Below are positions 6,526 through 60,115 of a stretch of 64,000 nucleotides of DNA, in pieces; the stretch's first letter is position 1; the number at the start of each line of letters is the position of its first letter. The DNA comes from Candidatus Cloacimonadota bacterium. Lineage in GTDB: Bacteria; Cloacimonadota; Cloacimonadia; Cloacimonadales; WRIO01. The DNA is taken from positions 1 to 64,000 of the forward strand of contig WRLO01000006.1 in NCBI GenBank assembly GCA_009777575.1, given 5' to 3'. The translations under genes were made by a program, and so were the position numbers. Under the pieces are notes generated by a model. It did no database searches. It saw only the letters and a program-made list of their open reading frames with translations, and was not told the origin of the DNA.

Positions 6526-6566
6526 CTATTTCCACCTTATACAAATTTTCATAAGTTTAGTTGTTC

Positions 6567-24717: not shown

Positions 24718-24789
24718 AATTTATTACCTCTTTTTTAATTATTTTTTTTTCTTTAACACAGGGTAGATCATCCAGTCGCGGAATCTCAC

Positions 24790-28464: not shown

Positions 28465-28475
28465 TTATCTCTCCT

Positions 28476-29645: not shown

Positions 29646-29659
29646 ATTTTACTCCTTTT

Positions 29660-30856
29660 TTATTTATTTGGGTTTAAGATGATGAATCTACCAGTTAGTG
29701 TTTCTTTCATTTCATTGTAGTTTGCTGGTGTTGAGCTTGAAGAACTGGTGATTCTATAGAAATAAATACCAGGTGATACCCTTTGTCTGCTTGCATCTCT
29801 CATATTCCATGAAAATATATTTTCATCAGTTTTAGTCTGTATATCAGAAATTCTTTGCACAAGCTGCCCTCTGATGTTGTAGATTCGTAGCTCTACTCCA
29901 TAGCCCCCTTTTGCAAGGGAGGTGGGTGAGGAATGTAAATTAAATCTTATCATCACCTCATCCCCTCTCACAGGATTAGGATAAGCAAAACTCGATTGTG
30001 ATACTACCGGGATTATTTGATCAAAGCCACTAGATGGAGGGTCTGGAGGATTAAGCACTTCTATAAATTCCTCTTCTTGAACCCTAACTACTCTTTCATC
30101 ATTTTCAAGGATTTTAATTAAGTCATATACTTCTATCAGACTGAAATTAAATACAAAAATCCTATGCGTAGATGGAGTTGGAATATCGAAACTATACACA
30201 TGTTGAATGTCATAATGTGAATAATCAGATACTATCTCATCTATTAGCTCATCAGATGAATTTTGTAATTTCATCCCCACTGCCCCAGGCACATATTCTG
30301 AAGGTAGTCCTGCCAGTTTTACTCTTTTGTCAGCTCTGACAAGTTTAAGAAGCTCTAATGGTTCTATGGTGTTAGATCTGTATTCATAATATACATATAA
30401 TGCTGAAGGAACACAGTCTGGACACCACCACCAGTTCATCATAAAAAGATAGTATTGAGAATAATCTCGAATAAAATCCCAATAGTCTCTTACATCATTT
30501 AACAGAATTATGATTCTTTCAAACCGAATATCAAAGTTGTGATTGGCAGTATAAACCCTTTCATCTGCTTGAATCATCCTCAAAAACTCATTTTCTTCAA
30601 CTAAATTGTAGTTGTAATAAAAATGAATTAATTTAAAATCAGTTTGTGGAATCCATCCCGACCAATCATCAATAATAGCGAGGTCGTAATACACATAATC
30701 AGTAATATACTCTTCAAGTTTATCATCATCTATGTGATTTTCAAATCTGATGATGATTTCTCCCGGAACGGGAATCTTTTCTTCAGCCACAAGGCTTTTG
30801 TGTCCTATTATTCCAAAATATAGTAGGATGAACACCAATAAAGTTTTGTGTTTCAT
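29660..30856 (-). CDS. Secreted three-module propeptide-like protein (array 1)
   Basis: The 398 residues comprise a signal peptide, three modules (~29-107, ~108-190, ~191-270) and a FlgD-type domain. Module 1 shows the pattern best: PGEIIIRF strand, DDKLEEYITDY helix, LIHFYYNYN strand, NEFLRMIQADERV helix and TANHNF strand. Module 2 has a WWWCPDC pair. It is highly similar to the proteins at 56103, 57314 and 58510 in array 2, also at DNA level. The sorting domain carries an in-frame C/G-rich insert (29903-29933) of variable length among paralogues. AGGAG lies in the 13-bp spacer before the start. Confidence 0.7.
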   Translation of the reverse strand: MKHKTLLVFILLYFGIIGHKSLVAEEKIPVPGEIIIRFENHIDDDKLEEYITDYVYYDLAIIDDWSGWIPQTDFKLIHFYYNYNLVEENEFLRMIQADERVYTANHNFDIRFERIIILLNDVRDYWDFIRDYSQYYLFMMNWWWCPDCVPSALYVYYEYRSNTIEPLELLKLVRADKRVKLAGLPSEYVPGAVGMKLQNSSDELIDEIVSDYSHYDIQHVYSFDIPTPSTHRIFVFNFSLIEVYDLIKILENDERVVRVQEEEFIEVLNPPDPPSSGFDQIIPVVSQSSFAYPNPVRGDEVMIRFNLHSSPTSLAKGGYGVELRIYNIRGQLVQRISDIQTKTDENIFSWNMRDASRQRVSPGIYFYRITSSSSSTPANYNEMKETLTGRFIILNPNK

Positions 30857-30869
30857 ATTTTACTCCTTT

Positions 30870-31988
30870 TTACTTTAGTATCGTTAATCTACCCGTATGT
30901 ATGTTTTCTTTAGATTTTATTCTAAAGAAATATGTTCCCGACGCTGCTCTTTGATTGTGTTGATCTTTCAAATCCCAAATAAAAGCAATTTCTCCGGCAT
31001 TTTCTTGAAAATTTTCAGATGTCTTTATTAACTGTCCTCTTATGTTGTATATAGATATCACATACTCAGACAAGGTTTCTGTGGACTTTTCTGTCAGTTT
31101 ATCATCTTCTGTTTTCATCTTTATAATTACTTCCTCAAACCTTGCAGGATTCGGATAAACTGTTATATGTTCTATCTTTGACAGGGTTTCATCATTTGAA
31201 GAAGTTACTGGACCAGAGCATATATGAAGTAATCTTTCATAATAAATAAACTCTGTATTATTTACCCTATAATCTTGTCTTATTTCCTTAAAAACTGTAA
31301 ATTCGTTATAAAGTAAATGATCGAAAGTTAATAACCATGTATTTGAATACATAGATAGTGGACCTTTTACATAAATCTCAAAATGAGAAAAATCATCTAA
31401 AAACTCATCAAAAGATTCGTTTACAACCCAGCTGTCTAATCTTACACTTATTTCACCAGGTTTCCAACCTTTACTAAACATAGTATCGATAACCCTCTCA
31501 TCATTTCTCATCATATCGTATACCTCACCGGGATAAAACTGATTGTCATCAAAAATAAAGCTAGAATAGTTATAGGGGGTTCCCCAACCAGAAACACTTC
31601 CGTTTAAACCAATGTGTGAATAACTGTTTATAAAATCTGCTTCGCAAACATCATCTGATAGATTAATAGCAAGAGTTCTAACCCTCCAGTCATCAAGAAA
31701 AGATGATAAATATACCCTTGAATCATTTTGTATCATACTAAGAAAATTATTTACATCAATGGTGGTTTTATCAAAAAAATAAAACCCCAATAAACATCCT
31801 CCACACACCATATCTAATAGTCTTAACTGGTATTGGCTATAATCATTTAAAAATCTTTGATAAGCTTGCCCAGTTACATGACTGTATAGCATTATCTCCA
31901 TAGCTTGAGCAAGACTTTCATTAGCGAAAAAATTGCTATTGCTCCATATACACAATACGATTAATAAAAAAATTATTCTTTTTTTCAA
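30870..31988 (-). CDS. Secreted three-module propeptide-like protein, second subgroup (array 1)
   Basis: The 372 residues start with a signal peptide (MKKRIIFLLIVLCIWSNSNFF) and hold three modules with the same helix-strand pattern (FLNDYSQYQL, NDSRVYLSSF; SYSHIGL, NDERV; GEISVRL, DDFSHFEI). The FlgD-type domain follows (YPNPARFEEV, IYNIRGQLIKTS, AASGTYFFRI). Module 1 has a VCGGC pair at the spot where the other subgroup has its CxxC in module 2. It is nearly identical to the protein at 54970 in array 2. Spacers of 13-14 bp with GGAG join it to its neighbours. Confidence 0.7.
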   Translation of the reverse strand: MKKRIIFLLIVLCIWSNSNFFANESLAQAMEIMLYSHVTGQAYQRFLNDYSQYQLRLLDMVCGGCLLGFYFFDKTTIDVNNFLSMIQNDSRVYLSSFLDDWRVRTLAINLSDDVCEADFINSYSHIGLNGSVSGWGTPYNYSSFIFDDNQFYPGEVYDMMRNDERVIDTMFSKGWKPGEISVRLDSWVVNESFDEFLDDFSHFEIYVKGPLSMYSNTWLLTFDHLLYNEFTVFKEIRQDYRVNNTEFIYYERLLHICSGPVTSSNDETLSKIEHITVYPNPARFEEVIIKMKTEDDKLTEKSTETLSEYVISIYNIRGQLIKTSENFQENAGEIAFIWDLKDQHNQRAASGTYFFRIKSKENIHTGRLTILK

Positions 31989-32002
31989 AACATACTCCTT
32001 TT

Positions 32003-33523
32003 TTATTTATCTGGGTTTAAGATGATGAATCTACCAGTTAGTGTTTCTTTCATTTCATTGTAGTTTGCTGGTGTTGAGCTTGAAGAACTGATGATTCTAT
32101 AGAAATAAATACCCGGTGATACCCTTTGTCCGCTTGTATTTCTCATATTCCATGAAAACATATTTCCATCAGTTTTAGTCTGTATATCAGAAATTCTTTG
32201 CACAAGCTGCCCTCTGATGTTGTAGATTCGTAGCTCTACATTATTGCCCCCTTTTGTAATGGGGAGGGCGGAGGGATATAAATTAAATCGTATCATTACC
32301 TCATCCCCTCTCACTGGATTGGGATAGGCAATGCTACTAAACAACGATATTGTATTTTCAATGTTATCAAAAGTGCTTACAGTGTGATCTAAAGGAATCA
32401 TTCCAGTTAAATATGGATATCCTCCATTGATTTTTGGATCCATTGACCAGACACTCTCAAAATCCCATCCATTGTTTATATAAGTTGATGTTTGTTGTAA
32501 TTCCGTTGTTGTTAATCCATAATTGTTTTGTTCAATATAAAAAATCGGTCTAACTCCAGTAGATTCTGTATCCCAAAAGCTATTTTTCGTGTTTCCACCA
32601 AATCCACCAGAATCAACAGGAAAATGCGAAGTACTAGCAACTATGACATAAGAAATATCTGGAAAATGAAATGTTGTAAATCCAGTAGTTATTCCCCCTA
32701 TTCTTTGAGTTCCTTCTAAAAAATTACCAAAAAAGAACGAATTATTTATACTACCTTGACTCATTGTTCCTGCTATTCCTGCAGTTTGACCATTATACTT
32801 TACATTTGAATGAATATGGACCTTTGCATAGCAATATTTTATTTCAGTAATGCCAGCATAACCTATCAACCCACCAGTGTATGTTCCAGTTAATAAAACC
32901 GGGGGATTTTCTGGATCCCAGATAAAATCAAAATCTCTACCATTTACAAAACCTGTAGCAGAGCATCGTAAAATACTCCCTCCAATAATAGTTCCCACTA
33001 TAGACCCAACATTAGCACTTCCCGTGATATCTACATTCATCAATCTGATATTTAATAAATTTGCACTACGAACCATACCAAAAAGTCCTGCATTTCTAGC
33101 TATAAAACTATCTATTGCAGTGTTCATAAAAAGGTTTGAAATAATAAACCCATTCCCATCATAATCTCCGTAAAATGCTTTGTAGATTTCCATCCCCATT
33201 AAAATACTATGATCAGCATAATAAAAACCAATGGGGCTAAATCCTGCTCCATTATTCCAATGTATAGTTTCTGTAGCATCTATGTCAGCTATTTGATGAA
33301 AATAAAACTTTTCTAAAACAGAGCCATCGAGGGATTCGTTACCCCAAACTGTTTCTGTTTCAGACAACCACCTGAGATTATTTAGATTCGCTATTAAAAA
33401 CGGGTTCTCTTCAGATCCAGCGTTATGTTCATAAAAATTTGAGGGTGGTTCTGCAAATGTTTCACTTAATACAGGCAGCACTATCATAAACCAAGCTATC
33501 AATAATAATAAAGTTTTTCTCAC
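32003..33523 (-). CDS. Secreted GLUG-motif protein with FlgD-type sorting domain (array 1)
   Basis: The 506-residue protein has a signal peptide and a start segment found in GLUG proteins (GSEENPFLIANLNNLRWLS). Repeats of the GLUG type follow (NAGLFGMV, NVGSIVGTI, TGGLIGYAG, GQTAGIAGTM), then NGGYPYLTGM before a FlgD-type domain. GLUG repeats form beta-solenoids and occur in bacterial adhesins and surface proteins. The sorting domain is almost the same at DNA level as that of the gene at 58510, unlike its GLUG region. The start codon is GTG at 33523, with a purine-rich GGGGAAT upstream. It contains no propeptide-like module. Confidence 0.75.
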   Translation of the reverse strand: MRKTLLLLIAWFMIVLPVLSETFAEPPSNFYEHNAGSEENPFLIANLNNLRWLSETETVWGNESLDGSVLEKFYFHQIADIDATETIHWNNGAGFSPIGFYYADHSILMGMEIYKAFYGDYDGNGFIISNLFMNTAIDSFIARNAGLFGMVRSANLLNIRLMNVDITGSANVGSIVGTIIGGSILRCSATGFVNGRDFDFIWDPENPPVLLTGTYTGGLIGYAGITEIKYCYAKVHIHSNVKYNGQTAGIAGTMSQGSINNSFFFGNFLEGTQRIGGITTGFTTFHFPDISYVIVASTSHFPVDSGGFGGNTKNSFWDTESTGVRPIFYIEQNNYGLTTTELQQTSTYINNGWDFESVWSMDPKINGGYPYLTGMIPLDHTVSTFDNIENTISLFSSIAYPNPVRGDEVMIRFNLYPSALPITKGGNNVELRIYNIRGQLVQRISDIQTKTDGNMFSWNMRNTSGQRVSPGIYFYRIISSSSSTPANYNEMKETLTGRFIILNPDK

Positions 33524-33537
33524 TTTTATTCCCCTTT

Positions 33538-34668
33538 TTATTTTAGAATTAATATCTTACCAGTGTATATCATTTCATTAGAATGAATAATTCTATATAA
33601 ATAAAAACCAGATGAAACTGTTTGTCCATAAATGTTTTTTCTATCCCATATAAATGTCATTTTATCATTTTCATGGATAAAGTCCTTTGACTTCATTATT
33701 TTTTGCCCCCTAACATTGTAGATGACAATCTCTGAATTACCGATATCTCTTTTATCTAAATTTCCAGAGGGTGAAGAAATTGCAAAAGTCACATTATCGT
33801 TCAATGCAGGATTGGGAGTGACAGAAACACTATTAAGAGATACCCAGGTTTCATCATAATTTGAAGCAACTGGTCCAAAGCAAATTAATTGTGTATCTAA
33901 AAAATCAAAAGTAGCATAACTAACTCTTTCGTCATTTAAAAGCTCTTTTAATAAATAAAACTCATCATGCAATATAGGGTCGATTGAGATTACCCAATCA
34001 TATCCATAAATAGACGGAGTCTGAGATATTATTGACATATCATAATGAGAATAATCTTTTAAAAAAATTTCCATTATTTCATCAATAACCCAGTCTTTTG
34101 TTCTAAAAGCAATGTATCCGAAGCGCCAACCATATACAATATCAGCAGCTGATACTTTAATATCATATTTTAAAAGATCCAAAAAACAACCTGAATAAAT
34201 TGATGTATCGTCAAAAGTAAATTCTTTTCTATCGTCACCATGATTTGGAATAGATCCTCTGAGTTTATATTCTGAATATTTGTTGATCAAGTCAGCTTCT
34301 TCACTGTCATTTGCAAGTTTTAATGATATGGTTCTAGGTCTCCAATTTGGCTCTGATAAACCGTTATTAAACCTAGCACTACTTACTCTAGAATCATTTC
34401 TAATCAATCCTAAAAAATCGTTTTCTTCAATAATTTTTCTATTGAATATGAACCATTTTTCGTTGCAAAAATCGTCATTACAAGAATTAATAATAAATTT
34501 CAATTGATATTGACTATAATCATTTAAAAAGCTCAGATATTCTTGTCCAATAACATGGCTGTACAAATGGATGTAGATTGGTTTTGCGAGTGCTTCATTT
34601 GCTTTAAGATTATTAAAAAATACTAACGAACATAAGATGAACATTATAGCAATAAGTCTTTTTTCCAT
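33538..34668 (-). CDS. Secreted three-module propeptide-like protein (array 1)
   Basis: The 376 residues hold a signal peptide, three modules (FLNDYSQYQLKF, NDSRVSSARF; KYSEYKL; FLKDYSHYDM, NDERVSYATF) and a FlgD-type domain (IYNVRGQKIMKS, SSGFYLYRI). It is a diverged member of the 30870/54970 subgroup, retaining its TGQxY- and YSHV-like first module. The Cys pair in module 1 is wider here (NSCNDDFC). The gene stands between the two GLUG genes with 9-14-bp spacers, and GGAG lies before the ATG. Confidence 0.7.
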   Translation of the reverse strand: MEKRLIAIMFILCSLVFFNNLKANEALAKPIYIHLYSHVIGQEYLSFLNDYSQYQLKFIINSCNDDFCNEKWFIFNRKIIEENDFLGLIRNDSRVSSARFNNGLSEPNWRPRTISLKLANDSEEADLINKYSEYKLRGSIPNHGDDRKEFTFDDTSIYSGCFLDLLKYDIKVSAADIVYGWRFGYIAFRTKDWVIDEIMEIFLKDYSHYDMSIISQTPSIYGYDWVISIDPILHDEFYLLKELLNDERVSYATFDFLDTQLICFGPVASNYDETWVSLNSVSVTPNPALNDNVTFAISSPSGNLDKRDIGNSEIVIYNVRGQKIMKSKDFIHENDKMTFIWDRKNIYGQTVSSGFYLYRIIHSNEMIYTGKILILK

Positions 34669-34677
34669 TTTTTCTCC

Positions 34678-36237
34678 TTATTTGATTATGACAAATCTAC
34701 CCATGATATCAGATTGATTTTCATTCTGTGCCGAGGATATTCTATAAAAATATAGTCCACTGGGAACTTCTAAATTGCTTATATCTCTTCTATCCCAGAC
34801 AAAAATATTGTTACCGTTTTTTGTTTGTGATACATTTGATGCTCTTATCAGCTGTCCACGCACATTATAGATTCTTATAGCTGTCTCACAAACAACATAA
34901 GCGGTTTTTGGTAGCTTGGAATTTATTTGCCATCGAATTTCTACTTCCCCTCCTCTCACAGGGTTCGGAGAAACAAAACTCTGTATCAAAGGATAAATCG
35001 TATCATCAATAGTGCTTGTTATAGGTTCAAGAATATTTCTTAAAAAGGGATATCCATCATTCACTTCAGAATCCATTTTCCAGACATTTTCAAAATCCCA
35101 ACCATTATTTTCAAAAGTTGAAATTATCTTCAATAAATCGGTCGACATACCATAATTATTTATCAATAAATTCTCTCCAATCAAAGGATAGCCAAATGGT
35201 ATGTGGATTCCAGTTGCATCTGTATCCCAAAAGCAATTTCTTATTTCAGAAGAAACTATAAAGTTCACTAATCCACTTGAATGATTGGCAAATCTATTTC
35301 TACTAGTCACATATACATTTCTAATTTCAGTTTGAATTGCTTCACTCGATATCCCTGCACATGTTGAGGCATTATAAAAATTGTCAATATCACCATAAAA
35401 AAAAGAATTTTTTAAACTACCCTTGATTTTTATTGCAACAAGACCACCTACCATACTGATAACATGGGCAATATATAAATTATCATGTTTAGCTTTAATA
35501 TTTGTTTGAACATAACAAAATTCGATCTCTGAACTATATGATAGTCCTATCAAACCCCCAATATTTAGGTTTGGTATTACTATGGGCATTATATCATCAT
35601 TGTCTTCTGGAGGATATATATCGTAATTCACCCCTGTTACATAACCATTTGATGAACAATACCGAATTATACTATGATATGCCTGAGCTACAATAGAGCC
35701 TATTGATGAATTACCAGTGATATCGGCATGGTCAAGTCTTATATTCAGAATATTGCTTTGAACAATAAATCCAAAAAATCCAGCATTATTTGAAATATAT
35801 TTATCTGTAGCTGAATTGATGTATAATCCTTTTATAGAGTGATAATTTCCGTTATAATATCCGAAAAAAGGTTTCTTTTTAATGATTACATTGGGGAAAG
35901 AATAATAATTTATTTCTAGTAAACCTATAGGTCTAAATCCTTTTCCGTCATTCCAGTGTATTGTTTCTGTGGCATCAATATCTGCAATTTGAATGAAATG
36001 ATATTTCTTTTCTACAATCCAATTCTTCTCATCTACATCTGTAGTGTAACCATGTCCCCATATATTCTCTGTCTCACTTAACCATCTCAGATTCCTCAGA
36101 TTCGCTATTAAAAACGGGTTCTCTTCAGATCCAGCGTTATGTTCATAAAAATTTGAAGGTGGTACTGCTAATGTTTCACTTAATACAGGCACCACAGCCA
36201 TAAAACAAGCTATTAATAATAATAAGGGTTTTCTCAC
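34678..36237 (-). CDS. Secreted GLUG-motif protein with FlgD-type sorting domain (array 1)
   Basis: The 519-residue paralogue of the GLUG protein at 32003 has the same signal peptide type and leader (GSEENPFLIANLRNLRWLS), GLUG-like repeats (NAGFFGFIV, SSIGSIVAQA, NIGGLIGLS, VGGLVAI) and a GYPFLRNI ending. Its FlgD-type domain is of another kind (IYNVRGQLIRAS, FVWDRRD) and matches that at 28476. A probable surface adhesin or scaffold. GTG start at 36237 after AGGAG. A 45-bp spacer lies before it. Confidence 0.75.
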   Translation of the reverse strand: MRKPLLLLIACFMAVVPVLSETLAVPPSNFYEHNAGSEENPFLIANLRNLRWLSETENIWGHGYTTDVDEKNWIVEKKYHFIQIADIDATETIHWNDGKGFRPIGLLEINYYSFPNVIIKKKPFFGYYNGNYHSIKGLYINSATDKYISNNAGFFGFIVQSNILNIRLDHADITGNSSIGSIVAQAYHSIIRYCSSNGYVTGVNYDIYPPEDNDDIMPIVIPNLNIGGLIGLSYSSEIEFCYVQTNIKAKHDNLYIAHVISMVGGLVAIKIKGSLKNSFFYGDIDNFYNASTCAGISSEAIQTEIRNVYVTSRNRFANHSSGLVNFIVSSEIRNCFWDTDATGIHIPFGYPLIGENLLINNYGMSTDLLKIISTFENNGWDFENVWKMDSEVNDGYPFLRNILEPITSTIDDTIYPLIQSFVSPNPVRGGEVEIRWQINSKLPKTAYVVCETAIRIYNVRGQLIRASNVSQTKNGNNIFVWDRRDISNLEVPSGLYFYRISSAQNENQSDIMGRFVIIK

Positions 36238-36282
36238 TTTATGTCTCCTTTTTTATGTTTTATTGACAAAAATCATACATAT

Positions 36283-37608
36283 TTAATTCCACAAATCGAC
36301 AAAGGGTATGAAGGCTACCCATAATATTCGTGGATCGTTGTTTAAAATATCTAACATTTCATATTCATTTATTATCTCGATATTGAACGATAAAGTAGCA
36401 GTGTTTGTCCAATAGTTTTTGGATAATACGATTAATTCATATTCATTATAGGATTCTATAAAATCATCAAGTTCTTCCCAAAAAACATGATATTCTAATA
36501 ATGCACTGAATTGTCCCATTTTCCAATGCCTTTGCACTCTATTGAAATCTGCATTCAAAACCCACGGATGATTGTTTACCATTTCGAGTAATTCCAATTC
36601 ATTTATCAAATAATGATTAAATGTTACCCAAAGATTTTTAGATTGAATGTTATGCCCCATAAGAGTCATTTGGTATTTCATAAAAATATCAGGAAATCCA
36701 TCCAATATTTCATTGGAGAGTTCATCTTCCATTTTTATTATCAACTCACCTATCACCCAATCTCTTGGGTATTCATTGAAATCAGCTCTCATTATCAGAG
36801 GGTCATTCCGGAGCATTTCAAGAAACTCGAATTCATCGATTAAATCGTAATTAAAGGAAAAATGAACGCTTTCTACCATCTTATTAAACGATAAGATGGA
36901 TGTCTCAAAATCTGAATATGAATATTTGATTTCTTCAGCCCAGCCAAACCCTCTTGCATTTATACGAGCCACTATCTCTCCCTTTACCCAAGTTTCATTC
37001 TCATTGTCTAGATGAACTATAGGAATATCTGCAAATTTTACCCTAAAGTCATCTCTGATAAGTAGCAACATTTCAAAATCATCTATTAATTTGTTATTAA
37101 AAGAAAATTCGAATGCTCCCCTCTCAACGCGAGTAGGAATGTTAGACACAAGCTCATATTTTGAATATAGACTGAGCATTTGTTTTATAAATATGAGTAT
37201 TTCTGTGGTAGAGGAATTAATGTGTAACGAACCACTAATGAGTCCACTTATCCATGTAAGATTATCTTCATTTTTGCTTATTCTTTGGATTCTTTTATCA
37301 TTTTCAAGTAATTCAAGCAACAGTTTCTCATCTTGTGTTTTTGTCATGAAAGTTAAGCGCATGTAATTATCTGGCAATAAATGTGCTGTTATCTCCAAAT
37401 TCCATTCTGCATAATCCTGCAAAAAATTATTGAGGAGATTGCCTACTACATCTTGATGCAAAATTGCTTTTAAATCGCCTTTTGTCCATTCTTCAGCCTC
37501 ATGTTGATTAGTTGGATGGTTCGTGCAACTAATAGCTACTACGAGAATAATAATCACAATTATTATCATTGAGATTTTTAAATTTTTGTGCAATTTTGTG
37601 TATTCCAT
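36283..37608 (-). CDS. Lipoprotein of five propeptide-like modules, no sorting domain (array 1, first gene)
   Basis: From the ATG at 37608 the product has 441 residues. The frame continues to a TTG at 37629, but AAGGA lies just in front of 37608. A strongly hydrophobic stretch ends in VAISC-TN, a fair lipobox, so the protein is probably lipid-anchored after cleavage before Cys. Five modules follow, each opening with W.(K/I/V)G(E/D/Q/L)... and closing with (D/N)(D/H)...(A/V).FN-like strands (e.g. KGEIVARI, FSFNYDLIDEFEFLEMLRNDP, MRADFN). Unlike all other array members it lacks the FlgD-type domain, so it would stay in a membrane while its relatives are sorted outward. It is the first gene of the array and may be a membrane partner of the system. 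Confidence 0.7.
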   Translation of the reverse strand: MEYTKLHKNLKISMIIIVIIILVVAISCTNHPTNQHEAEEWTKGDLKAILHQDVVGNLLNNFLQDYAEWNLEITAHLLPDNYMRLTFMTKTQDEKLLLELLENDKRIQRISKNEDNLTWISGLISGSLHINSSTTEILIFIKQMLSLYSKYELVSNIPTRVERGAFEFSFNNKLIDDFEMLLLIRDDFRVKFADIPIVHLDNENETWVKGEIVARINARGFGWAEEIKYSYSDFETSILSFNKMVESVHFSFNYDLIDEFEFLEMLRNDPLIMRADFNEYPRDWVIGELIIKMEDELSNEILDGFPDIFMKYQMTLMGHNIQSKNLWVTFNHYLINELELLEMVNNHPWVLNADFNRVQRHWKMGQFSALLEYHVFWEELDDFIESYNEYELIVLSKNYWTNTATLSFNIEIINEYEMLDILNNDPRILWVAFIPFVDLWN

Positions 37609-37970
37609 AAATTCCTTGAATTGTTCCAAAATATAGTAGGATGAACATCAATAAAGTTTTGTGTATCATTGTTTTTTTTTACCTATAACTTCTTTTTTCA
37701 CACGGAGATTGCTTCGTAAGGCAATTCAAGTAAGCAACCTCGCAAAGACGGGATAGGGAACCTCGTCTAAAACTTCACACTTCCCCCCCAATAAATGTGG
37801 GGGGGAAAAATCCCCCCTCGTAAAGGGGGGGGTAAACATCTCAAAGACGGATATAGCACCGCTAAGGGAAAAAAATCGAAAAAAGTTTTATAAGGTATTC
37901 GGATTGCGTTCATTGCAATCTCGTCACTCTGGGTATTTTGTCTTAAATCTTGATTCCTATTTCTAAAACC
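37609..37970. other. Gap between nusG and array 1: fossil signal-peptide sequence and hairpins
   Basis: On the minus strand, 37669 down to about 37626 reads M-I-H-K-T-L-L-M-F-I-L-L-Y-F-G, the signal peptide of the 57314-type paralogues. It is out of frame with the lipoprotein gene by one base, so it is a remnant. Two C/G-run hairpins follow (37781-37832). No complete gene and no convincing promoter are visible. Confidence 0.75.
37781..37832. repeat. Two adjacent C-run/G-run hairpins
   Basis: TTCCCCCCCA (37781-37790) pairs exactly with TGGGGGGGAA (37798-37807). Directly beyond it, TCCCCCC (from 37811) pairs with a G-run ending near 37832. They lie just downstream of nusG and may block read-through into array 1, but no T-run is associated. 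Confidence 0.7.
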
Positions 37971-50554: not shown

Positions 50555-50635
50555 ACTTCTCCTTGATTTTATCGTCTGTTGTCACTGCCTGCGTCAGCAA
50601 AAAAATTAATCTCACAACAAACATCTATACCTCCC

Positions 50636-51092
50636 CTATTTTATTAACATCATTCGTCTAATAAATGTTTCATTTTCTGTCTGTAATCTATAAAAATAAA
50701 CGCCACTTGCTACTTCTAAACCATACTCATTTCTCCCATTCCAGAGTATTTCGTGGCTACCGGCTGGCATTAATTCATCCATCAATACCCGAACCTTCTG
50801 ATCTCTGATATTGAAAATCTCAAGATTAACCTCTCCAGAGACTGCAAGATTGAAATTTATCATAGTCTCTGGATTGAAAGGATTCGGATAATTTCCCATT
50901 TCAATATCCATAACAGATACTAAATTTTTTATATCCTCTTTTTTGTCAAGATTTTTTATTCTATCGAATATATACTCTTGCAATATTATAAACTCTTCAA
51001 GCTTACTAGGTCGGTGTTTACCTACTGTCGAAAAAGACCTACTACCTTGCTCCTGCAACCTAAAATAACAATATCCTTGATTCAATTCCGCA
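50636..51092 (-). pseudogene. Truncated third copy of the array protease (C-terminal end only)
   Basis: About 152 codons match the final part of the proteases at 24790 and 51315: the AELNQGYCYF end of the TPR region and the complete FlgD-type domain (NYPNPFNPETMINF, WNGRNEYGLEVASGVYFYR). Homology stops at 51092; beyond it the frame runs only into a palindromic element. Signal peptide, propeptide and catalytic domain are all missing, so it is a remnant rather than a gene product. Confidence 0.85.
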
Positions 51093-51125
51093 TTTTGGAG
51101 AAAATCCCCCCACATTTATGGGGCG

Positions 51126-51262
51126 GGCAGGGGCAATGTTAACAACTTAAGAAAAATCTGCTCCGTAGTGCCAATCTCCGATTGGCTTTTTATGCGGGTT
51201 TATGGCAATCGGAGATTGCCGCTACGGATTTTAAGCAGCTTAAGTTGTTAGCATTGGGGGCA
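51126..51262. repeat. Long imperfect palindrome, repeat family A copy 3
   Basis: Arms of about 60 bp pair with each other: GGCAATGTTAAC-AACTTAAG through to CCGTAGTGCCAATCTCCG (to ~51185), against its complement (51205-51262). It closely resembles copy 1, including the trailing ACCGC...TCG. The element begins ~20 bp past the break of the truncated protease copy and ends just past the stop of the intact protease at 51315. Confidence 0.85.
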
Positions 51263-51314
51263 GGGGGGGGAAGTACCGCTCCGACGGCTCGACCCCTCAG
51301 TCGCGAAATCTCAC

Positions 51315-54300
51315 CTATTTCAACAACACCATTCTTCTGGTGACACTCTCACCTCCAGCCTGAAGACGATAGAAATATACTCCACTTGCTACTTCGCTAT
51401 CATACTCATTTCTCCCATTCCAGAGTATTTCGTGGCTTCCGGCTGGCATTAATTCATCTATTAATACCCTGATCTTTTGACCTCTGATATTGAAAATCTC
51501 AAGGTTAACCTTTCCAGAGACTGTAAGATTGAAATTTATCATAGTCTCAGGATTGAAAGGATTCGGATAATTACCCATTTCAATATCCATAACAGATATC
51601 ATATTTTCAATATCCTCTTTTTTGCCAAGGTTTTCTATTCTCTCGAATATATCCTCTTGCAATATTATAAACTCTTCAAGGTTATTAGGTCGGTGTTTAC
51701 CTACTGTCGGAAAAGACCTACTACCTTGCTCCTGCAACATCAAATAACAATATCCTTGATTCAATTCCGCAAGTAGAGTGCTGATAATATCGTAATCCTG
51801 CTCAATGATGTCTTCATAGATATAAATCGCATCAAAATAATCAGAATTGAACATGCGAGCCATACCTTTGGTCTCAAGAACTATATTTTCCAGATTGTCA
51901 TGCTCTATACTTTCCAAAAAATCCCATAGTTCTTCAAAATCTCCTTCATGCAAATAGTTCGCTTGAAACAATAAAGGAACAGCTAAAATAGCGTATTCAT
52001 CATCAGGATAATCCTCTATCAAACCCATAAATATCTCCATTGCTTGCTCATAATCTCCTTCAGCAAAAGATTCTATACCATCATCATAAAGCAGTCTTGG
52101 AGTTATTGGCGGATCTGGGGCAGGTGGCACAAATTGAAAACAATTTATACAAGGAAAAAACTTTGAGGGGTCAGCTCTTGAAATCAACACATCGATAACA
52201 TGAAGTCGCGGTGTGATAGGAGAATTACTTGTATTCGCTCTCAATAAATAACCTGTATTAGGGATATGGGGGTCATCATATTTTATTCTCGGAGAGCGAA
52301 ATGCGTTGGATTGTGGAAAGATAGGAAAGGCTGAAGGCAGAGCCTCAATTTGATTCAGCCTATTGTTACTGATCATCAAATTTTGTCCGATGATGCTTTT
52401 TATATTTCCATGAAAATAGATTCCATGCTCTAAATTTTCTTCTATTCTGCCTTCTTTTATTTCAGCAAAACTCCCATTTATCAGAATACCAAATCTGGCA
52501 TTATCATAAATTTCTGTAAAATATATTTTATTCAGACCCGGTGAATGGTTAATAGCTATGCCATGAAAATTGTTTTCATATACCTTTGAGTCATACATCT
52601 CTATTAAACTTTGATTGAACACATACAGATGACGCAAATTTTGACGATAATGAATATTGTTAAAAATGCCCTTAGAATTGTTTTGGATAGTAAAACGGTG
52701 CAATTTCTCTATTGTAGAATCGCTGATTTCTGCTTCACTATAATTCTGAATAAAAACTTGCGAACCTTCAGAATCACCGCGAATTATCGAATCATTCTTT
52801 GCTTCAAGCACGCTTCCATTGGCAATAATCAACCTACTCGAAGCATCTAAACTTAAAAGGCTTTGGGTGAGTTCGAAAGACCCATTGTTCACAGTTATCT
52901 GACCCTGACGAACTGCATATAGATAACTATTGTTTAAGGTTAGTTTTCCACCTGAATTGATAGATATTTGACTATTTTCGCCACGGTGAGATAATATACT
53001 GCTACCCAATAGGGACAATCTGCCATTGTTTTCTATCTCAAGAAAACCAGCATTTCTCAATACGAGATTGCTTTGAGATCCCATAACTATATTTGAAGAT
53101 GTATCTATTCTGTAAAGTGCCTCAAATCCAATTTCTACTGAGCCACTAACAAAAGACACAACACTACCATCTTTTATCCATAACATTGTATCTGGTGAAT
53201 AAACTTTGATGGCTGTATTTCCCATATTCAATCTTGAATTTTCTATGACAAACTGAGCAGAATTACGAATATCTATCTCACCAACACTTATTGTTTTTAT
53301 ATTGCTATTCCGAATGATGATAGCGCTATCAGGTCCACCAACTCTGATGAAAGGAACATAAACGGAAGTATTTTCAATTATTAATGTTCCGTGACGGACA
53401 GTAATCCCAAAAAATTGGTTTAAAGGGTCTTGATGATTGGCAGAATAGACGATACTATCAGAAATAGTCAATACTGCTCCATTGTCAATTACCCAGTTTT
53501 TCGATAGTGCTATGTTGCTGGTAATGAGGGAGTCTGCTGTTATTATATGCTGGAGACCCATGACTCGCATTACTGGATTAAATGCGTTCAGACGACCACC
53601 GGTGATGGTTGTTTCTTGTAAATCAGGAACCCTGTCCACACCTTGCAATAGATATTCTTTAAACTGTAATGCGACTTCTTTCGGATGTGTCCGTGACCTT
53701 TCAATTAAATCATCGCTTGCTGCATGATACATCAGTCCTATTACACCGGCTACATAAGGGGCTGAAAAGCTGGTTCCCCATGTTGTTGTATAATCGTTTA
53801 AAAGGGTTCTGTGTCCTGTAGTAACTATATTGTGTCCAGGGGCACCTAAATTAACAGTATATTTCCCATAACCTCCACCACCGCTTATTGGACCAACATA
53901 TCGAACCTCTCTATTAGTAGTAGCTGTTACTACTATCAAGTTTTCTGGTATTTCGCTTATTAATTGAGGCGAAACAGTAATGTGTAAATTTGTATTACCA
54001 GATGACCAGATGAATAGTATGCCAGCATCACCCATTTCTTTGATTTTATTGGCAGCAGGAGATGTAGGATTATTAAAAATACTTTGAACTCCTTCATATG
54101 GATGATAAACCGCAACAATATTTAACCCACCATTATTATTGTTATAGTTTTCTCTCTGTGCAATAAAATAATCCATTTCTGAAAGATAACCATTAATAAG
54201 AGTTCGCCTATCTAAAATTATGGTTTTAATATCTAAAAGATCCCCACCTATTCCAGATATTCCTAAATAATTGTTCGAAGTTGCAGAAATTAATCCTGCT

Positions 54301-54956
54301 GTCATTGTGGCATGTGAGTTGAATTCTGAGCTTGGGTTAAGAGGTGGATAAATATATCCGGGTGGATGCCACATATTTTCTTGAAGATCGTCGTGAGTGG
54401 TTTCAAGGTAAATATCTCTTGCTGCTACGAAAATTGGTCTAGAGTTGATATTAGGTATTGTAGACAACAAATTCCAAGTATTAAGAGCATCTATATCTGC
54501 TCCAATTATTCCTATATGCCCATGAATTATTTGCCCGGTATTGTTCAATGCCCATTGTGAAGAAAAATAATAATCATTGAGTGTGTTTTGAAAATTAAAT
54601 TCTGACGCATCTACCTCAACCATGTCCAAAATTCCAATTTTTTCTCTTTCGAGATAATAATTCAGCATAGCAGAAACGACATACCTATCATCTAGTAATA
54701 CATTCAATAGATTTTCTTCTGAAATTGTGTTTGTATTGAAAGTGAAAAGATATGTGTTTGATCGTTCAGATATCATCTCTGTTTTTTGTAATCTATACTG
54801 TGAATATGAGGTTAAAAATAGATAAACATCATTTCCCCGTATATTTGATTCTAAAGAGACAATAATTTCTCCAGACTTAAAATTGGGTCCATAAGCATTT
54901 AAACTTATATTCCATATCATTAAAAATAAGAAACAAATTAAAATCTGTCTGTTCAT
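51315..54956 (-). CDS. Secreted subtilisin-like protease with beta-helix, TPR and FlgD-type domains (array 2)
   Basis: The 1213-residue protein has the same build as that at 24790: signal peptide, one propeptide-like module (SGEIIVSLES..., TSYSQYRL, FTFNTN, DDRYVVSAMLN), S8 domain with Asp181, His215 (NSHATMTAG), Asn321 (SSGNT) and Ser396 (WGTSFSAP), beta-helix, TPR-like part and sorting domain. The His motif has A in place of the usual G. The catalytic part differs strongly from that of the array-1 protease, while everything from GGRLNAFNPVMRVMG to the C terminus is nearly identical. Last intact gene of array 2. Confidence 0.85.
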   Translation of the reverse strand: MNRQILICFLFLMIWNISLNAYGPNFKSGEIIVSLESNIRGNDVYLFLTSYSQYRLQKTEMISERSNTYLFTFNTNTISEENLLNVLLDDRYVVSAMLNYYLEREKIGILDMVEVDASEFNFQNTLNDYYFSSQWALNNTGQIIHGHIGIIGADIDALNTWNLLSTIPNINSRPIFVAARDIYLETTHDDLQENMWHPPGYIYPPLNPSSEFNSHATMTAGLISATSNNYLGISGIGGDLLDIKTIILDRRTLINGYLSEMDYFIAQRENYNNNNGGLNIVAVYHPYEGVQSIFNNPTSPAANKIKEMGDAGILFIWSSGNTNLHITVSPQLISEIPENLIVVTATTNREVRYVGPISGGGGYGKYTVNLGAPGHNIVTTGHRTLLNDYTTTWGTSFSAPYVAGVIGLMYHAASDDLIERSRTHPKEVALQFKEYLLQGVDRVPDLQETTITGGRLNAFNPVMRVMGLQHIITADSLITSNIALSKNWVIDNGAVLTISDSIVYSANHQDPLNQFFGITVRHGTLIIENTSVYVPFIRVGGPDSAIIIRNSNIKTISVGEIDIRNSAQFVIENSRLNMGNTAIKVYSPDTMLWIKDGSVVSFVSGSVEIGFEALYRIDTSSNIVMGSQSNLVLRNAGFLEIENNGRLSLLGSSILSHRGENSQISINSGGKLTLNNSYLYAVRQGQITVNNGSFELTQSLLSLDASSRLIIANGSVLEAKNDSIIRGDSEGSQVFIQNYSEAEISDSTIEKLHRFTIQNNSKGIFNNIHYRQNLRHLYVFNQSLIEMYDSKVYENNFHGIAINHSPGLNKIYFTEIYDNARFGILINGSFAEIKEGRIEENLEHGIYFHGNIKSIIGQNLMISNNRLNQIEALPSAFPIFPQSNAFRSPRIKYDDPHIPNTGYLLRANTSNSPITPRLHVIDVLISRADPSKFFPCINCFQFVPPAPDPPITPRLLYDDGIESFAEGDYEQAMEIFMGLIEDYPDDEYAILAVPLLFQANYLHEGDFEELWDFLESIEHDNLENIVLETKGMARMFNSDYFDAIYIYEDIIEQDYDIISTLLAELNQGYCYLMLQEQGSRSFPTVGKHRPNNLEEFIILQEDIFERIENLGKKEDIENMISVMDIEMGNYPNPFNPETMINFNLTVSGKVNLEIFNIRGQKIRVLIDELMPAGSHEILWNGRNEYDSEVASGVYFYRLQAGGESVTRRMVLLK

Positions 54957-54969
54957 TTTTTACTCCTTA

Positions 54970-56088
54970 TTACTTTAGTATCGTTAATCTGCCTGTATGT
55001 ATGTTTTCTTTAGTTTTTATTCTAAAGAAATATGTTCCCGATGCTGCTCTTTGATTGTATTGATCTTTCAAATCCCAAATAAAAGAAATTTCCCCAGCAT
55101 CATTTTGAAAATTTTTAGATGTCTTTATTAACTGTCCTCTTATATTGTATATAGATATCACATAATCAGACAAGGTTTCTGGGGACTTTTCTGTCAGTTT
55201 ATCATCATCTGTTTTCATCTTTATAATTACTTCCTCAAACCTTGCAGGATTCGGATAAACTGTTATATGTTCTATCTTTGATAGGGTTTCATCATTTGAA
55301 GAAGATATTGGACCAGAGCATGGATGTAAAATTCTCATATAATAATTAAACATAATACCTCTTACTCTATAATCCTGTCTTAATTCCTCATATAATAAAA
55401 ATTCATTATCCAGTAAATAACTGAAAGATAATAACCATGTATTTGAGTTTACCGATATTTGGCTTATTTCAATAAACTCAATATGAGAAAAGTCATCCAA
55501 AAATTCATCAAAAGCTTCGTTTACAACCCAGTTGTCTAAGTTTACTATTATGTCACCAGGTTTCCAACCTTTACTAAACATAGTATCGATAACCCTTTCA
55601 TCATTTCTCATCATATCGTATACCTCACCGGGATAAAATTGGTTGTCATCAAAAGTAAAGCAAAAATAATCTGAAGGTGTATCCATACCATAAACACTTC
55701 CGTTTAAACCAATGTGTGAATAACTGTTTATAAAATCTGCTTCGCAAACATCATCTGAAAGCTTAATGGCAAGTGTTCTAACCCTCCAGTCATCAAGAAA
55801 AGATGATAAATATACCCTTGAATCATTTTGTATCATACTAAGAAAATCATTTACATCAATGGTGGTTTTATCAAAAAAATAATACCTCAATAAACATTCA
55901 TCACACACTATATCTAATATTCTTAACTGGTATTGACTATAATCATTCAAAAATCTTTGATAAGCTTGCCCAGTTACATGGCTGTATAGTGTTATATACA
56001 TCGCTTGAGCAAGACTTTCATTTGCGAAAAAATTGCTATTGCTCCATATACACAATACGATTAACAAAAAAATTATTCTTTTTTTCAT
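54970..56088 (-). CDS. Secreted three-module propeptide-like protein, second subgroup (array 2)
   Basis: The 372-residue near-twin of the protein at 30870 has the same signal peptide, three modules (FLNDYSQYQLRI; SYSHIGL; GDIIVNL, DDFSHIEF) and FlgD-type domain. Module 1 has VCDEC where its twin has VCGGC. Differences cluster in module 3, consistent with diversification of one face. It stands 13 bp before the protease gene with GGAG in the spacer. Confidence 0.7.
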   Translation of the reverse strand: MKKRIIFLLIVLCIWSNSNFFANESLAQAMYITLYSHVTGQAYQRFLNDYSQYQLRILDIVCDECLLRYYFFDKTTIDVNDFLSMIQNDSRVYLSSFLDDWRVRTLAIKLSDDVCEADFINSYSHIGLNGSVYGMDTPSDYFCFTFDDNQFYPGEVYDMMRNDERVIDTMFSKGWKPGDIIVNLDNWVVNEAFDEFLDDFSHIEFIEISQISVNSNTWLLSFSYLLDNEFLLYEELRQDYRVRGIMFNYYMRILHPCSGPISSSNDETLSKIEHITVYPNPARFEEVIIKMKTDDDKLTEKSPETLSDYVISIYNIRGQLIKTSKNFQNDAGEISFIWDLKDQYNQRAASGTYFFRIKTKENIHTGRLTILK

Positions 56089-56102
56089 AACACACTCCTT
56101 TT

Positions 56103-57299
56103 TTATTTATTTGGGTTTAAGATGATGAATCTACCAGTAAGTGTTTCTACTTTTTCATTATTGTTCACTAATGTTGAGCTTGAAGAGCTGGTGATTCTAT
56201 AGAAATAAATACCCGGTGATACCCTTTGTCCGCTTGCATCTCTCATATTCCATGAAAACATATTTTCATCAGTTTTAGTCTGTATATCAGAAATTTTTTG
56301 CACAAGCTGCCCTCTGATGTTGTAGATTCGTATCTCTACTCCATAACCCCCTTTTGCAATGGAGGGGGAGGAGGGATATAAATTAAATCTTATCATCACC
56401 TCATCACCTCTCACTGGATTAGGATAAGCAAAACTCGATTGTGATACTACCGTGATTATTTGATCAAAGCCGCTAGATGGAGGGTCCGGAGGATTAAGCA
56501 CTTCACCTGGTATATCTTCATCGGCTAATACTACTCTTTCATCATTATTAAGGATTTTTAGCAAATCATGCATCCATATTAAACCAAAATTGAATACAAA
56601 AATCCTAATCGTAGATGGAGTTGGAGTATCTAAACTATATACATGTTGAATTTCATAATGTGAATAATCAGATACTATCTCATCAATTAGCTCATCAGTT
56701 GAATTTTGTAATCTCATCCACACTATCCCAGGCACATATTCTGAACGTAGTCCTGCCAGTTTTACTCTTTTGTCCGCTCTGACAAGTTTAAGAAGCTCTA
56801 ATGGTTCTATGGTATTAGATTTGTATTCATAATACACGGTGACCATCAAAGGACCACAGTATGGACACCACCACCAAGTCTTCATCTGAAGATGATATTG
56901 AGAATAATCTCTAATAAAATCCCAATAGTCTCTTACATCATTTAGTCGAATTATAATTCTTTCAAACCGAGGGTCAAAGTTGTGATTGGCAGTATAAACC
57001 CTTTCATCTGCTTGAATCATCCTCAAAAACTCATTTTCTTCAACTAAATTGTAGTTGTAATAAAAATGAATTAACCTAAAACCAGCATACTTAATTGCTT
57101 CTGACCAATCATCAATAATAGCGAGGTCATAGTATACATAATCAGCAATAAACTCTTCGAGTTTATCATCATCAATATGGTTTTCAAATCTGATGATGAT
57201 TTCTCCTGGAACTGGAACCTTTTCTTCAGCCACAAGGCTTTTGTATCCTACTATTCCAAAATATAGTAGGATGAACATCAATAAAGTTTTGTGTTTCAT
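56103..57299 (-). CDS. Secreted three-module propeptide-like protein (array 2)
   Basis: The 398-residue protein of the MKHKTLLMF subgroup has signal peptide, three modules and FlgD-type domain. Module 1 reads PGEIIIRF, KLEEFIADY, LIHFYYNYN, QADERV, TANHNF; module 2 has WWWCPYC. The sorting domain has a SPSIAKGGYG in-frame insert coded by C/G-rich DNA (56347-56376). Spacers of 14 bp with AAGGAG before and after. Confidence 0.7.
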   Translation of the reverse strand: MKHKTLLMFILLYFGIVGYKSLVAEEKVPVPGEIIIRFENHIDDDKLEEFIADYVYYDLAIIDDWSEAIKYAGFRLIHFYYNYNLVEENEFLRMIQADERVYTANHNFDPRFERIIIRLNDVRDYWDFIRDYSQYHLQMKTWWWCPYCGPLMVTVYYEYKSNTIEPLELLKLVRADKRVKLAGLRSEYVPGIVWMRLQNSTDELIDEIVSDYSHYEIQHVYSLDTPTPSTIRIFVFNFGLIWMHDLLKILNNDERVVLADEDIPGEVLNPPDPPSSGFDQIITVVSQSSFAYPNPVRGDEVMIRFNLYPSSPSIAKGGYGVEIRIYNIRGQLVQKISDIQTKTDENMFSWNMRDASGQRVSPGIYFYRITSSSSSTLVNNNEKVETLTGRFIILNPNK

Positions 57300-57313
57300 T
57301 TTTTACTCCTTTT

Positions 57314-58495
57314 TTATTTATCTGGGTTTAAGATGATGAATCTACCAGTTAGTGTTTCTTTCATTTCATTGTAGTTTACTGGTGTTGAGCTTGAAGAGCT
57401 GGTGATTCTATAGAAATAAATACCCGGTGATACCCTTTGTCCGCTTGCATCTCTCATATTCCATGAAAATCTATTTTCATCAGTTTTAGTCTGTATATCA
57501 GAAATTCTTTGTACAAGCTGCCCTCTGATGTTGTAGATTCGTAGCTCTACTCCATAACCCCCTTTTGTAATGGTGGGTGAGGAATGTAAATTAAATCGTA
57601 TCATCACCTCATCCCCTCTCACTGGATTGGGATAGGCAAAACTCGATTGTGATACTACCGGAATTATTTGATCAAAGTCACTAGATGGAGGGTCTGGAGG
57701 ATCAAGCGTTTCTCCATACCCTACTATTCCAGTAGCTACTACTCGTTCATCATTTTCAAGGATTTTGATCAAATCATGAACTCCTATCAAACCAAAATTG
57801 AATGTATAAATTCCATCTGAAAAATCGAATCTATAAATGAGTTGAAGGTCATAATGTGAATAGTCAGATATTATCTCTTCTATCAGATCATCAGATGAAT
57901 TTTTTAATACTAACCACAAACACCCAGGCGTATATTCTGAAGGTAGTCCTGCCAGTTTTACTCTTTTGTCAGCTCTGACAAGATTAAGAAGCTCTAATGG
58001 TTCTATGGTGTTAGATCTGTATTCATAATACACATACAATGCTGAAGGAACACAGTCTGGACACCACCACCAATTCTTCATAAAAAGATAGTATTGAGAA
58101 TAATCTCGAATAAAATCCCAATAGTCTCCTACATCATTTAACAGAATTATGATTCTGTCAAACCGAGGATCAAAGTTGTGATTGGCAGTATAAACTCTTT
58201 CATCTGCTTGTATCATCCTCAAAAACTCATTTTCATCAACTAAATTGTAGTTGTAATAAAAATGAATTAATTTAATACCAGTTACTGATATATGTTCCGA
58301 CCAATCATCAATAATAGCGAGGCCATAGTATACATAATCAGCAATAAACTCTTCAAGTTTATCATCATCAATATGATTTTCAAATCTGATGATGATTTCT
58401 CCCGGAACGGGAATCTTTTCTTCAGCCACAAGGCTTTTGTATCCTACTATTCCAAAATATAGTAGGATGAATATTAATAAAGTTTTGTGTTTCAT
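57314..58495 (-). CDS. Secreted three-module propeptide-like protein (array 2)
   Basis: The 393-residue paralogue of its neighbours has the MKHKTLLIF signal peptide, three modules, WWWCPDC in module 2 and a FlgD-type domain with the shortest form of the in-frame insert (SSPTITKGG, 57557-57584). Module 3 differs most from the neighbours, with a short DFSDGIYTFNF hairpin. Confidence 0.7.
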   Translation of the reverse strand: MKHKTLLIFILLYFGIVGYKSLVAEEKIPVPGEIIIRFENHIDDDKLEEFIADYVYYGLAIIDDWSEHISVTGIKLIHFYYNYNLVDENEFLRMIQADERVYTANHNFDPRFDRIIILLNDVGDYWDFIRDYSQYYLFMKNWWWCPDCVPSALYVYYEYRSNTIEPLELLNLVRADKRVKLAGLPSEYTPGCLWLVLKNSSDDLIEEIISDYSHYDLQLIYRFDFSDGIYTFNFGLIGVHDLIKILENDERVVATGIVGYGETLDPPDPPSSDFDQIIPVVSQSSFAYPNPVRGDEVMIRFNLHSSPTITKGGYGVELRIYNIRGQLVQRISDIQTKTDENRFSWNMRDASGQRVSPGIYFYRITSSSSSTPVNYNEMKETLTGRFIILNPDK

Positions 58496-58509
58496 TTTTT
58501 ACTCCTTTT

Positions 58510-59706
58510 TTATTTATCTGGGTTTAAGATGATAAATCTACCCGTTAGTGTTTCTTTCATTTCATTGTAGTTTACTGGTGTTGAGCTTGAAGAACTGGTG
58601 ATTCTATAGAAATAAATACCAGGCGATACCCTTTGTCCGCTTGTATCTCTCATATTCCATGAAAATATATTTTCATCAGTTTTAGTCTGTATATCAGAAA
58701 TTCTTTGCACAAGCTGCCCTCTGATGTTGTAGATTCGTAGCTCTACTCCATAACCACCTTTTGTAATGGGGAGGGCGGAGGGATATAAATTAAATCTTAT
58801 CATCACCTCATCACCTCTCACTGGATTAGGATAAGCAAAACTCGATTGTGATGCTAACGGGATTATCTGATCAAAGTCACTAGATGGAGGGTCCGGAGGA
58901 TTAAGCACTTCCATAAATAAATGTTCTTGCGCCCAAACTACTCTTTCATCATTTTCAAGGATTTTAATTAAGTCATATACTTCGATCAGACTGAAATTAA
59001 ATGCAAAAATCCTATGCGTAGATGGAGTTGGAATATCGAAACTATACACATGCTGAATATCATAATGTGAATAGTCAGAGACTATCTCATCTATTAACAC
59101 ATCAGATGAATTTTGTAATCTTATAATCACTGACCCATGCACATATTTTGAAGGTAGTCCAGCCAATTTTACTCTTTTGTCAGCTCTGACAAGTTTAAGA
59201 AGCTCTAATGGTTCTATGGTATTAGAACTATATTCATAATACACATACAATGCTGAAGGAACACAGTCTGGACACCACCACCAGTTCATCATAAAAAGAT
59301 AGTATTGAGAATAATCTCGAATAAAATCCCAATAGTCTCCTACATCATTTAACAGAATTATGATTCTTTCAAACCGAGGGTCAAAGTTGTGATTGGCAGT
59401 ATAAACCCTTTCATCTGCTTGAATCATCCTCAAAAACTCATTTTCTTCAACTAAATTGTAGTTGTAATAAAAATGAATTAATTTAAAACCAGCATACTTA
59501 ATTAATTCTGACCAATCATCAATAATAGCGAGGTCATAGTATACATAATCAGCAATAAACTCTTCAAGTTTATCATCATCAATATGGTTTTCAAATCTGA
59601 TGATGATTTCTCCCGGAACGGGAATCTTTTCTTCAGCCACAAGGCTTTTGTATCCTACTATTCCAAAATATAATAGGATGAACATCAATAAAGTTTTTGT
59701 TCTCAT
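58510..59706 (-). CDS. Secreted three-module propeptide-like protein (array 2, first gene)
   Basis: The frame opens at 59724, but alignment with the paralogues (MRTKTLLMF against MKHKTLLMF) and a GAAGAG in the usual Shine-Dalgarno position point to the ATG at 59706, giving 398 residues. It has signal peptide, three modules (WWWCPDC in module 2) and FlgD-type domain with SALPITKGG insert (58753-58783). It is the promoter-proximal gene of array 2; its ribosome site has lost one G relative to the others. Confidence 0.7.
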   Translation of the reverse strand: MRTKTLLMFILLYFGIVGYKSLVAEEKIPVPGEIIIRFENHIDDDKLEEFIADYVYYDLAIIDDWSELIKYAGFKLIHFYYNYNLVEENEFLRMIQADERVYTANHNFDPRFERIIILLNDVGDYWDFIRDYSQYYLFMMNWWWCPDCVPSALYVYYEYSSNTIEPLELLKLVRADKRVKLAGLPSKYVHGSVIIRLQNSSDVLIDEIVSDYSHYDIQHVYSFDIPTPSTHRIFAFNFSLIEVYDLIKILENDERVVWAQEHLFMEVLNPPDPPSSDFDQIIPLASQSSFAYPNPVRGDEVMIRFNLYPSALPITKGGYGVELRIYNIRGQLVQRISDIQTKTDENIFSWNMRDTSGQRVSPGIYFYRITSSSSSTPVNYNEMKETLTGRFIILNPDK

Positions 59707-60115
59707 TTTTTTACTCTTCATCATTTTCTATTAAGCGTCACAACTCTTCGAGATGTGTAAGGAATATTAAAAATTAATTAAAAATCGACTTTTCGGAATG
59801 GACTCCGTTCGGAATGACAAGGTTTGCGTTCATAGTGACAAAGGTCTCCTTATAATCAATCCATACCTGTTTTAAACTCCAGCTAATTATGAAAATAATG
59901 TAGAGGTGGAGCTTGCCTCCATCCTAATATCAAGACAGAGGTTATTGCTTCGTTCCTCGCAACTGCTACTACAATATGGGGTTATTTCCTTAGTATGACA
60001 ATGTTTCAGGATCATGACAAAGAGTGTCGCTTGGATGATTCGAGCCTTATGCTGCGATGATTCTCAGCGTAAAAAAAACATTTCTACTCAACCCTACTCT
60101 ATTGATGCCGCGTAA
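59707..60115. other. Gene-free gap upstream of array 2
   Basis: I see no gene in these 409 bp between cheA and array 2. It holds a CTCCGTTCGGAATGAC segment (~59810) that recurs in a similar form near 62745. A promoter for array 2 should be here if the array is not read through from cheA, but no convincing -35/-10 pair was found. Confidence 0.6.

Follow-up and report, generated by a model that had tools for sequence, protein, structure and literature searches.

In this Candidatus Cloacimonadota genome, a module that recurs in secreted proteins is, by homology and position, the N-terminal prodomain of a T9SS-exported subtilase, and genes that encode only this module repeatedly lie just upstream of subtilase genes. 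The best-supported mechanism, which we regard as likely by analogy with known protease inhibitors, is that the stand-alone prodomains inhibit the co-encoded T9SS subtilases in trans. The original prediction had been that the pairing of module proteins with a protease is functional and not due to chance. That view is supported by linkage at nine places in the genome, by the presence of a second prodomain type in stand-alone form, by the prodomain identity of the module and by a set of pairs found in Bacteroidota.

Two arrays of module genes

The window, i.e. the whole stretch of 64,000 nucleotides that was analyzed, contains two arrays of module genes (Table 1). ORF and profile analysis of array 2 confirmed the arrangement that had been described, namely four three-module genes and then a subtilase, all on the minus strand from 59724 to 51315, with spacers of 14, 14, 14 and 13 bp in which AAGGAG is present (AAAAGGAGTAAAAA, found twice, AAAAGGAGTGTGTT and TAAGGAGTAAAAA). 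The four module proteins are 372-404 aa long, each with three modules of roughly 75 residues. The longest ORF for A2a begins at 59724, and a later in-frame ATG at 59706 is a possible alternative start. The subtilase, S2, matches PF00082 (E 2e-16) and is indeed the last intact gene of the array; further downstream, a third subtilase copy survives only as a C-terminal piece (82% identity to S1 and S2).

Table 1. Genes and gene remnants of the two arrays, with positions in the window
Feature	Position	Strand	Description
A2a	58510..59724	minus	array 2; secreted; modules 58927-59142, 59155-59376, 59383-59619; T9SS sorting domain
A2b	57314..58495	minus	array 2; modules 57722-57931, 57944-58165, 58172-58408; T9SS sorting domain
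A2c	56103..57299	minus	array 2; modules 56514-56735, 56745-56969, 56976-57212; T9SS sorting domain
A2d	54970..56088	minus	array 2; modules 55339-55566, 55570-55788, 55795-56007; T9SS sorting domain
S2	51315..54956	minus	array 2; S8 subtilase, 1213 aa; signal peptide; prodomain formed by a module (54654-54878); catalytic and further domains; T9SS sorting domain
Subtilase remnant	50636..51115	minus	last ~150 aa (C-terminal) only of a third subtilase copy
A1L	36283..37629	minus	first gene of array 1; five-module lipoprotein
Second GLUG-motif T9SS protein	34678..36237	minus	inside array 1
A1a2	33538..34668	minus	array 1; three-module protein
GLUG-motif T9SS protein	32003..33523	minus	inside array 1; without module; C-terminal region common to module proteins
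A1c	30870..31988	minus	array 1; three modules; 84% identical to A2d
A1d	29660..30856	minus	array 1; three modules; 84-89% identical to A2a/b/c
A1e	28476..29645	minus	array 1; three modules and T9SS domain; directly upstream of S1
S1	24790..28464	minus	array 1; S8 subtilase; prodomain formed by a module (28168-28386)

Array 1 follows the same plan, with the addition of two GLUG proteins and a five-module lipoprotein. DNA identity is 88-93% between the module genes of the two arrays and 94.7% between the C-terminal halves of their subtilases. This level of identity, 88-95% overall, means that the spacers and much of the gene order were copied, and so the argument from recurrence at two places 14 kb apart is weak: the arrays are largely duplicates of each other, which rules them out as independent recurrences, the main evidence offered at the outset.

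Between S1 and S2, dS is about 2 in the halves that encode the prodomain and catalytic domain, versus 0.13 in the rest of the gene. These halves diverged anciently, so the arrays are no plain copy of one locus, and two anciently diverged catalytic domains are accompanied by near-identical module proteins. Both subtilase genes are mosaic, with a diverged front and remaining two thirds that are nearly identical, a pattern that suggests gene conversion or domain replacement. Between the array duplicates dN/dS is 0.3-0.5, with the third module usually the most divergent, and by this measure the module-gene copies are kept under purifying selection.

In this lineage, each array has probably been inserted into an operon that is otherwise conserved, as judged from the regions 24286-38492 (array 1) and 49742-62512 (array 2) of the window. 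The genes nusG and rplK are adjacent in 11/11 relatives checked and are separated here by array 1; likewise, cheA and cheR are adjacent in four relatives (G001, G003, G005 and G006) and are separated here by array 2. Upstream of array 1 lies a module-gene remnant, a 51-bp stretch at 37624-37674 of the window that matches the starts of the array-2 module genes at 88-96%. Proteins that begin like the GLUG-motif T9SS proteins also occur elsewhere in the genome: at C25 (L054:2464-6093) they precede a module gene and a subtilase, and at C2 they directly precede a type-A subtilase (see below for types).

Identity of the module

The link between module and prodomain is visible within the window. Residues 1-99 of S1 match residues 1-108 of A2c in a BLAST comparison that includes the signal peptide (E 6e-15). 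Both S1 and S2 carry one module directly after the signal peptide, followed by the typical junction (...QWALNNTGQ) that leads into the catalytic domain; the catalytic Asp, His and Ser are all present in the two enzymes, and the subtilase fold is supported for S2. A window-derived profile detects approximately 100 modules genome-wide; in ten cases the module occupies the prodomain position of a subtilase ORF (S1, S2 and eight others).

The phylum survey gave a similar picture, with matches to the module in 14 of 124 genomes besides this one. In 13 of these 14 relatives, the single copy detected forms the N-terminal prodomain of a canonical subtilase; the remaining one, G001, encodes a stand-alone two-module protein with no subtilase within ~1.5 kb on each side. 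The module is therefore not mostly unlinked to subtilases in relatives, being almost always fused to one; the exceptions are G001 and, in the genome of the window itself, contigs C24, C49, C138 and C187. A sample of 80 loci (from Cloacimonadota, Calditrichota, Zixibacteria, Ignavibacteria, Bacteroidota and others) contained 83 subtilase ORFs, 68 of which match a module profile built from this genome's modules only. The closest named subtilase relatives are from Candidatus Cloacimonadota, and a contig scan with the full-length S1 protein found no relatives.

Structural comparison is consistent with the assignment. The AF2 model has a pLDDT of 96, and the first-ranked Foldseek match in the PDB is the furin-PC1/3 prodomain complex (E 5e-3), a match that is supportive only, given a fold this common. 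Aspergillus alkaline protease entries align over 72 residues with Z about 8, again in a common fold, and ACT-domain and ribosomal S6 folds predominate among the VIA-align matches of the module. Because the ferredoxin-like fold is so widespread, a fold match alone is weak and not decisive. PF05922 and PF22148 are absent from the listed matches of 69 modules at E values up to 1, and no Pfam family exceeds its cut-off; two subtilases from relatives have weak PF22148 matches over the module stretch (E 0.07 and 0.25, below cut-off). Filing the module under PF05922 or PF22148 was rejected on these below-cut-off scores. Searches of PDB sequences with the module profile and with a profile of the lone prodomain described below gave chance-level matches only, and no potempin.

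Linkage of module genes to subtilases

Every contig stretch with modules or subtilases was annotated in the draft assembly (198 contigs, 91% complete), in which the neighbourhoods of some module groups are cut by contig ends. A same-strand subtilase lies directly downstream of module-only genes at nine places: C6 (two arrays), C144, C115, C8, C25, C58, C178 and C20. The ORFs overlap by 4 bp at C144, C115, C8 and C178, as in translational coupling. Among informative module-only groups, 9 of 16 are followed by a same-strand subtilase, versus about 0.9% expected per group; with gene number estimated and groups made by hand, the binomial probability is 3e-15, or 3e-12 when recent duplicates are merged.

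The other neighbourhoods are varied. A broken subtilase adjoins module genes at C109, C134 and C177, another broken subtilase is located at C188, and contig C51 ends inside a module gene. No recognisable subtilase was found beside the module proteins at C24, C49, C138 and C187. At C20 and C144, a stand-alone module has its nearest relative in the prodomain of the subtilase next to it, and two ORFs at C20, of 170 and 208 aa, begin like the adjacent subtilase and stop soon past the prodomain.

C49, C138 and C187 (L058, L065 and L066) hold three related groups, each with a short module protein and large secreted proteins; the latter have a C-terminal region in common with the C144 subtilase and are without a recognisable protease domain. 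The genome as a whole (G000) has 31 PF00082 matches in a 3.76-Mb draft, with three prodomain types, and thus a large expansion of secreted subtilases.

Prodomain types, altered proteases and export

By sequence, the prodomains of the genome's subtilases fall into three types, A (the module itself), B and C. With a type-B profile, stand-alone proteins of two modules were detected at C156 (E 7e-16) and C109 (E 4e-24), and a partial one at C144; the C156 gene immediately precedes a type-B subtilase gene and overlaps it by 4 bp. The existence of stand-alone type-B proteins argues that the copying-out of prodomains was not confined to one type, and it evidently happened with more than one. In all, about 80-90 stand-alone prodomain copies, from at least two prodomain types, are present in the genome.

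At C8, C58, C178 and C115, the subtilase that follows type-A modules is of type B or C, which rules out a strict match between module type and the prodomain type of the neighbouring protease. In the subtilase-like proteins at C58 (L060:5962-7710) and C178 (L061:1-1749), both directly downstream of three-module lipoproteins, the catalytic His is replaced by Gln and the Ser by Ala, and these proteins are probable pseudoproteases. The C144 subtilase has Glu in place of the catalytic Asp.

The genome encodes a T9SS (SprA). Of the 32 module proteins that reach 170 aa or more, 16 have a simple lipobox pattern, the five-module A1L among them; the window's eight proteins with three modules have T9SS domains and no lipobox.

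A lone-prodomain pair in Bacteroidota

At two of the 80 sampled loci, both labelled Bacteroidota (one of them Flavobacteriales), the ORF for a small single-prodomain lipoprotein runs into the beginning of a T9SS subtilase gene whose product has retained a prodomain too. The cleanest case is the pair at L171:5631-5996 (lipoprotein) and 5971-7662 (subtilase). In the Bacteroidota order to which one of these genomes belongs, a lone-prodomain lipoprotein of 112-139 aa is encoded directly upstream of a subtilase in 6 of 7 genomes. The subtilases of these six pairs have their own prodomain as well, partly masked in one genome. In the alignment, the lipoprotein and the protease's own prodomain end at corresponding positions, with a conserved QLNH...R tail. 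This pair is the clearest evidence that the pairing is maintained. A search of a plasmid collection with the Bacteroidota lipoprotein found nothing.

Mechanism and alternatives

Ordinarily, a subtilase prodomain folds its enzyme and afterwards remains bound in the manner of a product, which keeps the enzyme inhibited until the prodomain is degraded (PMC6993865). The simplest way to model the present arrangement is that a prodomain was copied out of a protease gene and tandemly repeated, to give three copies per protein in these arrays. We infer that the module genes, situated just upstream of the protease gene, are probably co-transcribed with it, and that the secreted or lipid-anchored products, at a surface or periplasmic location, would bind the catalytic domain of subtilases, the co-encoded ones and perhaps others as well. 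Such inhibition in trans would shield secreted proteins and the cell envelope from premature cleavage.

Several observations run against this model in its strictest form. Inhibition would be pointless at C58 and C178, which have lost His and Ser, and at C144, with its Glu for Asp. The type of module differs from that of the partner prodomain at C8, C58, C178 and C115; module proteins at C24, C49, C138, C187 and in G001 lack a recognisable subtilase neighbour; near-identical module proteins accompany the two diverged catalytic domains of S1 and S2; and the commonness of the ferredoxin-like fold weakens the structural match. The type mismatches, altered catalytic residues and unlinked copies are better accommodated by a wider subtilase-binding network than by one-to-one inhibition. 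More speculatively, and tentatively, prodomains may have been amplified into polyvalent, surface-displayed or lipid-anchored "prodomain strings" that buffer or tether the large secreted-subtilase family, with the inactive subtilases as further partners.

The inactive partners at C58 and C178, along with the unlinked copies at C24, C49 and G001, would also be understandable if surface proteins had taken up the prodomain as a repeat for general binding or structural purposes (in an adhesin, matrix or scaffold) with no control of proteolysis. The tandem repeats, the T9SS sorting domains and the C-terminal region common with the GLUG proteins are in keeping with such a role. We consider it unlikely, however, because a generic repeat would not be expected to lie repeatedly directly upstream of subtilases, nor to form the conserved single-domain lipoprotein-subtilase pair of Bacteroidota. 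Gene order has a ready explanation if the stand-alone prodomains are instead foldases, i.e. separate chaperones that act in trans and mainly assist the folding of the catalytic domain after export: prodomains are folding templates in ordinary subtilases (PMC6993865), and the arrangement would supply them together with the protease. Yet nearly all of the paired subtilases retain a prodomain of their own, so that a second template is unneeded and tandem copies even less so, and foldase action as the main function seems quite improbable.

The truncated C20 ORFs and the broken subtilases at C134, C177 and C188 invite the thought that module-only genes are decaying or truncated subtilase duplicates without function. 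The dN/dS of 0.3-0.5 between duplicates argues against decay, as do the intact ORFs, the signal peptides and sorting domains, the three to five repeats per protein and the conservation across a Bacteroidota order, and we regard this explanation as very improbable. Inhibition in trans is thus the reading that we retain as likely.

Relation to known inhibitors and significance

The potempins of Tannerella forsythia are small secreted lipoproteins whose genes lie directly upstream of those for the T9SS-secreted KLIKK proteases, and each is reported as a specific inhibitor of the protease encoded next to it (PMC7296668, PMC4404884); the six lipoprotein ORFs that precede KLIKK proteases have no significant mutual similarity (PMC4404884). 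The system described here is alike in that a candidate inhibitor gene is directly upstream of a T9SS protease gene on the same strand, and in the T9SS sorting domains of the window subtilases. A simple lipobox pattern is seen in many longer module proteins outside the window. Unlike potempins, the module proteins are homologous to the protease's own prodomain and tandemly repeated, those of the window have T9SS sorting domains instead of lipid anchors, and several module genes precede one protease in the Cloacimonadota arrays.

Propeptide-like inhibitors encoded outside a protease gene have precedents. The gene for SUB1-ProM of Plasmodium adjoins subtilase genes, and the protein inhibits one of the encoded enzymes; the stand-alone propeptide-like inhibitors treated in the same paper are eukaryotic (PMC6993865). 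The module proteins, as subtilase-prodomain homologues encoded by their own genes apart from any enzyme precursor, resemble the MEROPS I9 stand-alone inhibitors (POIA1, the yeast peptidase B inhibitor and Arabidopsis SPI-1; also TgMIC5 and SUB1-ProM) in having a predicted propeptide-like fold outside the enzyme precursor. They differ in being bacterial, in carrying up to five repeats, in being T9SS-exported or lipid-anchored, and in the clear sequence homology of the module to the prodomain of the neighbouring protease. Compared with bacterial subtilase prodomains (Fervidolysin_NPro-like, PF22148, and Inhibitor_I9, PF05922), the module is similar in position, length and secondary structure, but most of its copies here are outside any protease.

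These results provide a testable function for a large unannotated family of secreted proteins in an uncultured phylum, in which an inhibitor would have originated by the copying out of part of its own target enzyme. The simple conserved pair of Bacteroidota, a lone-prodomain lipoprotein with a subtilase, offers a direct test case for this idea.
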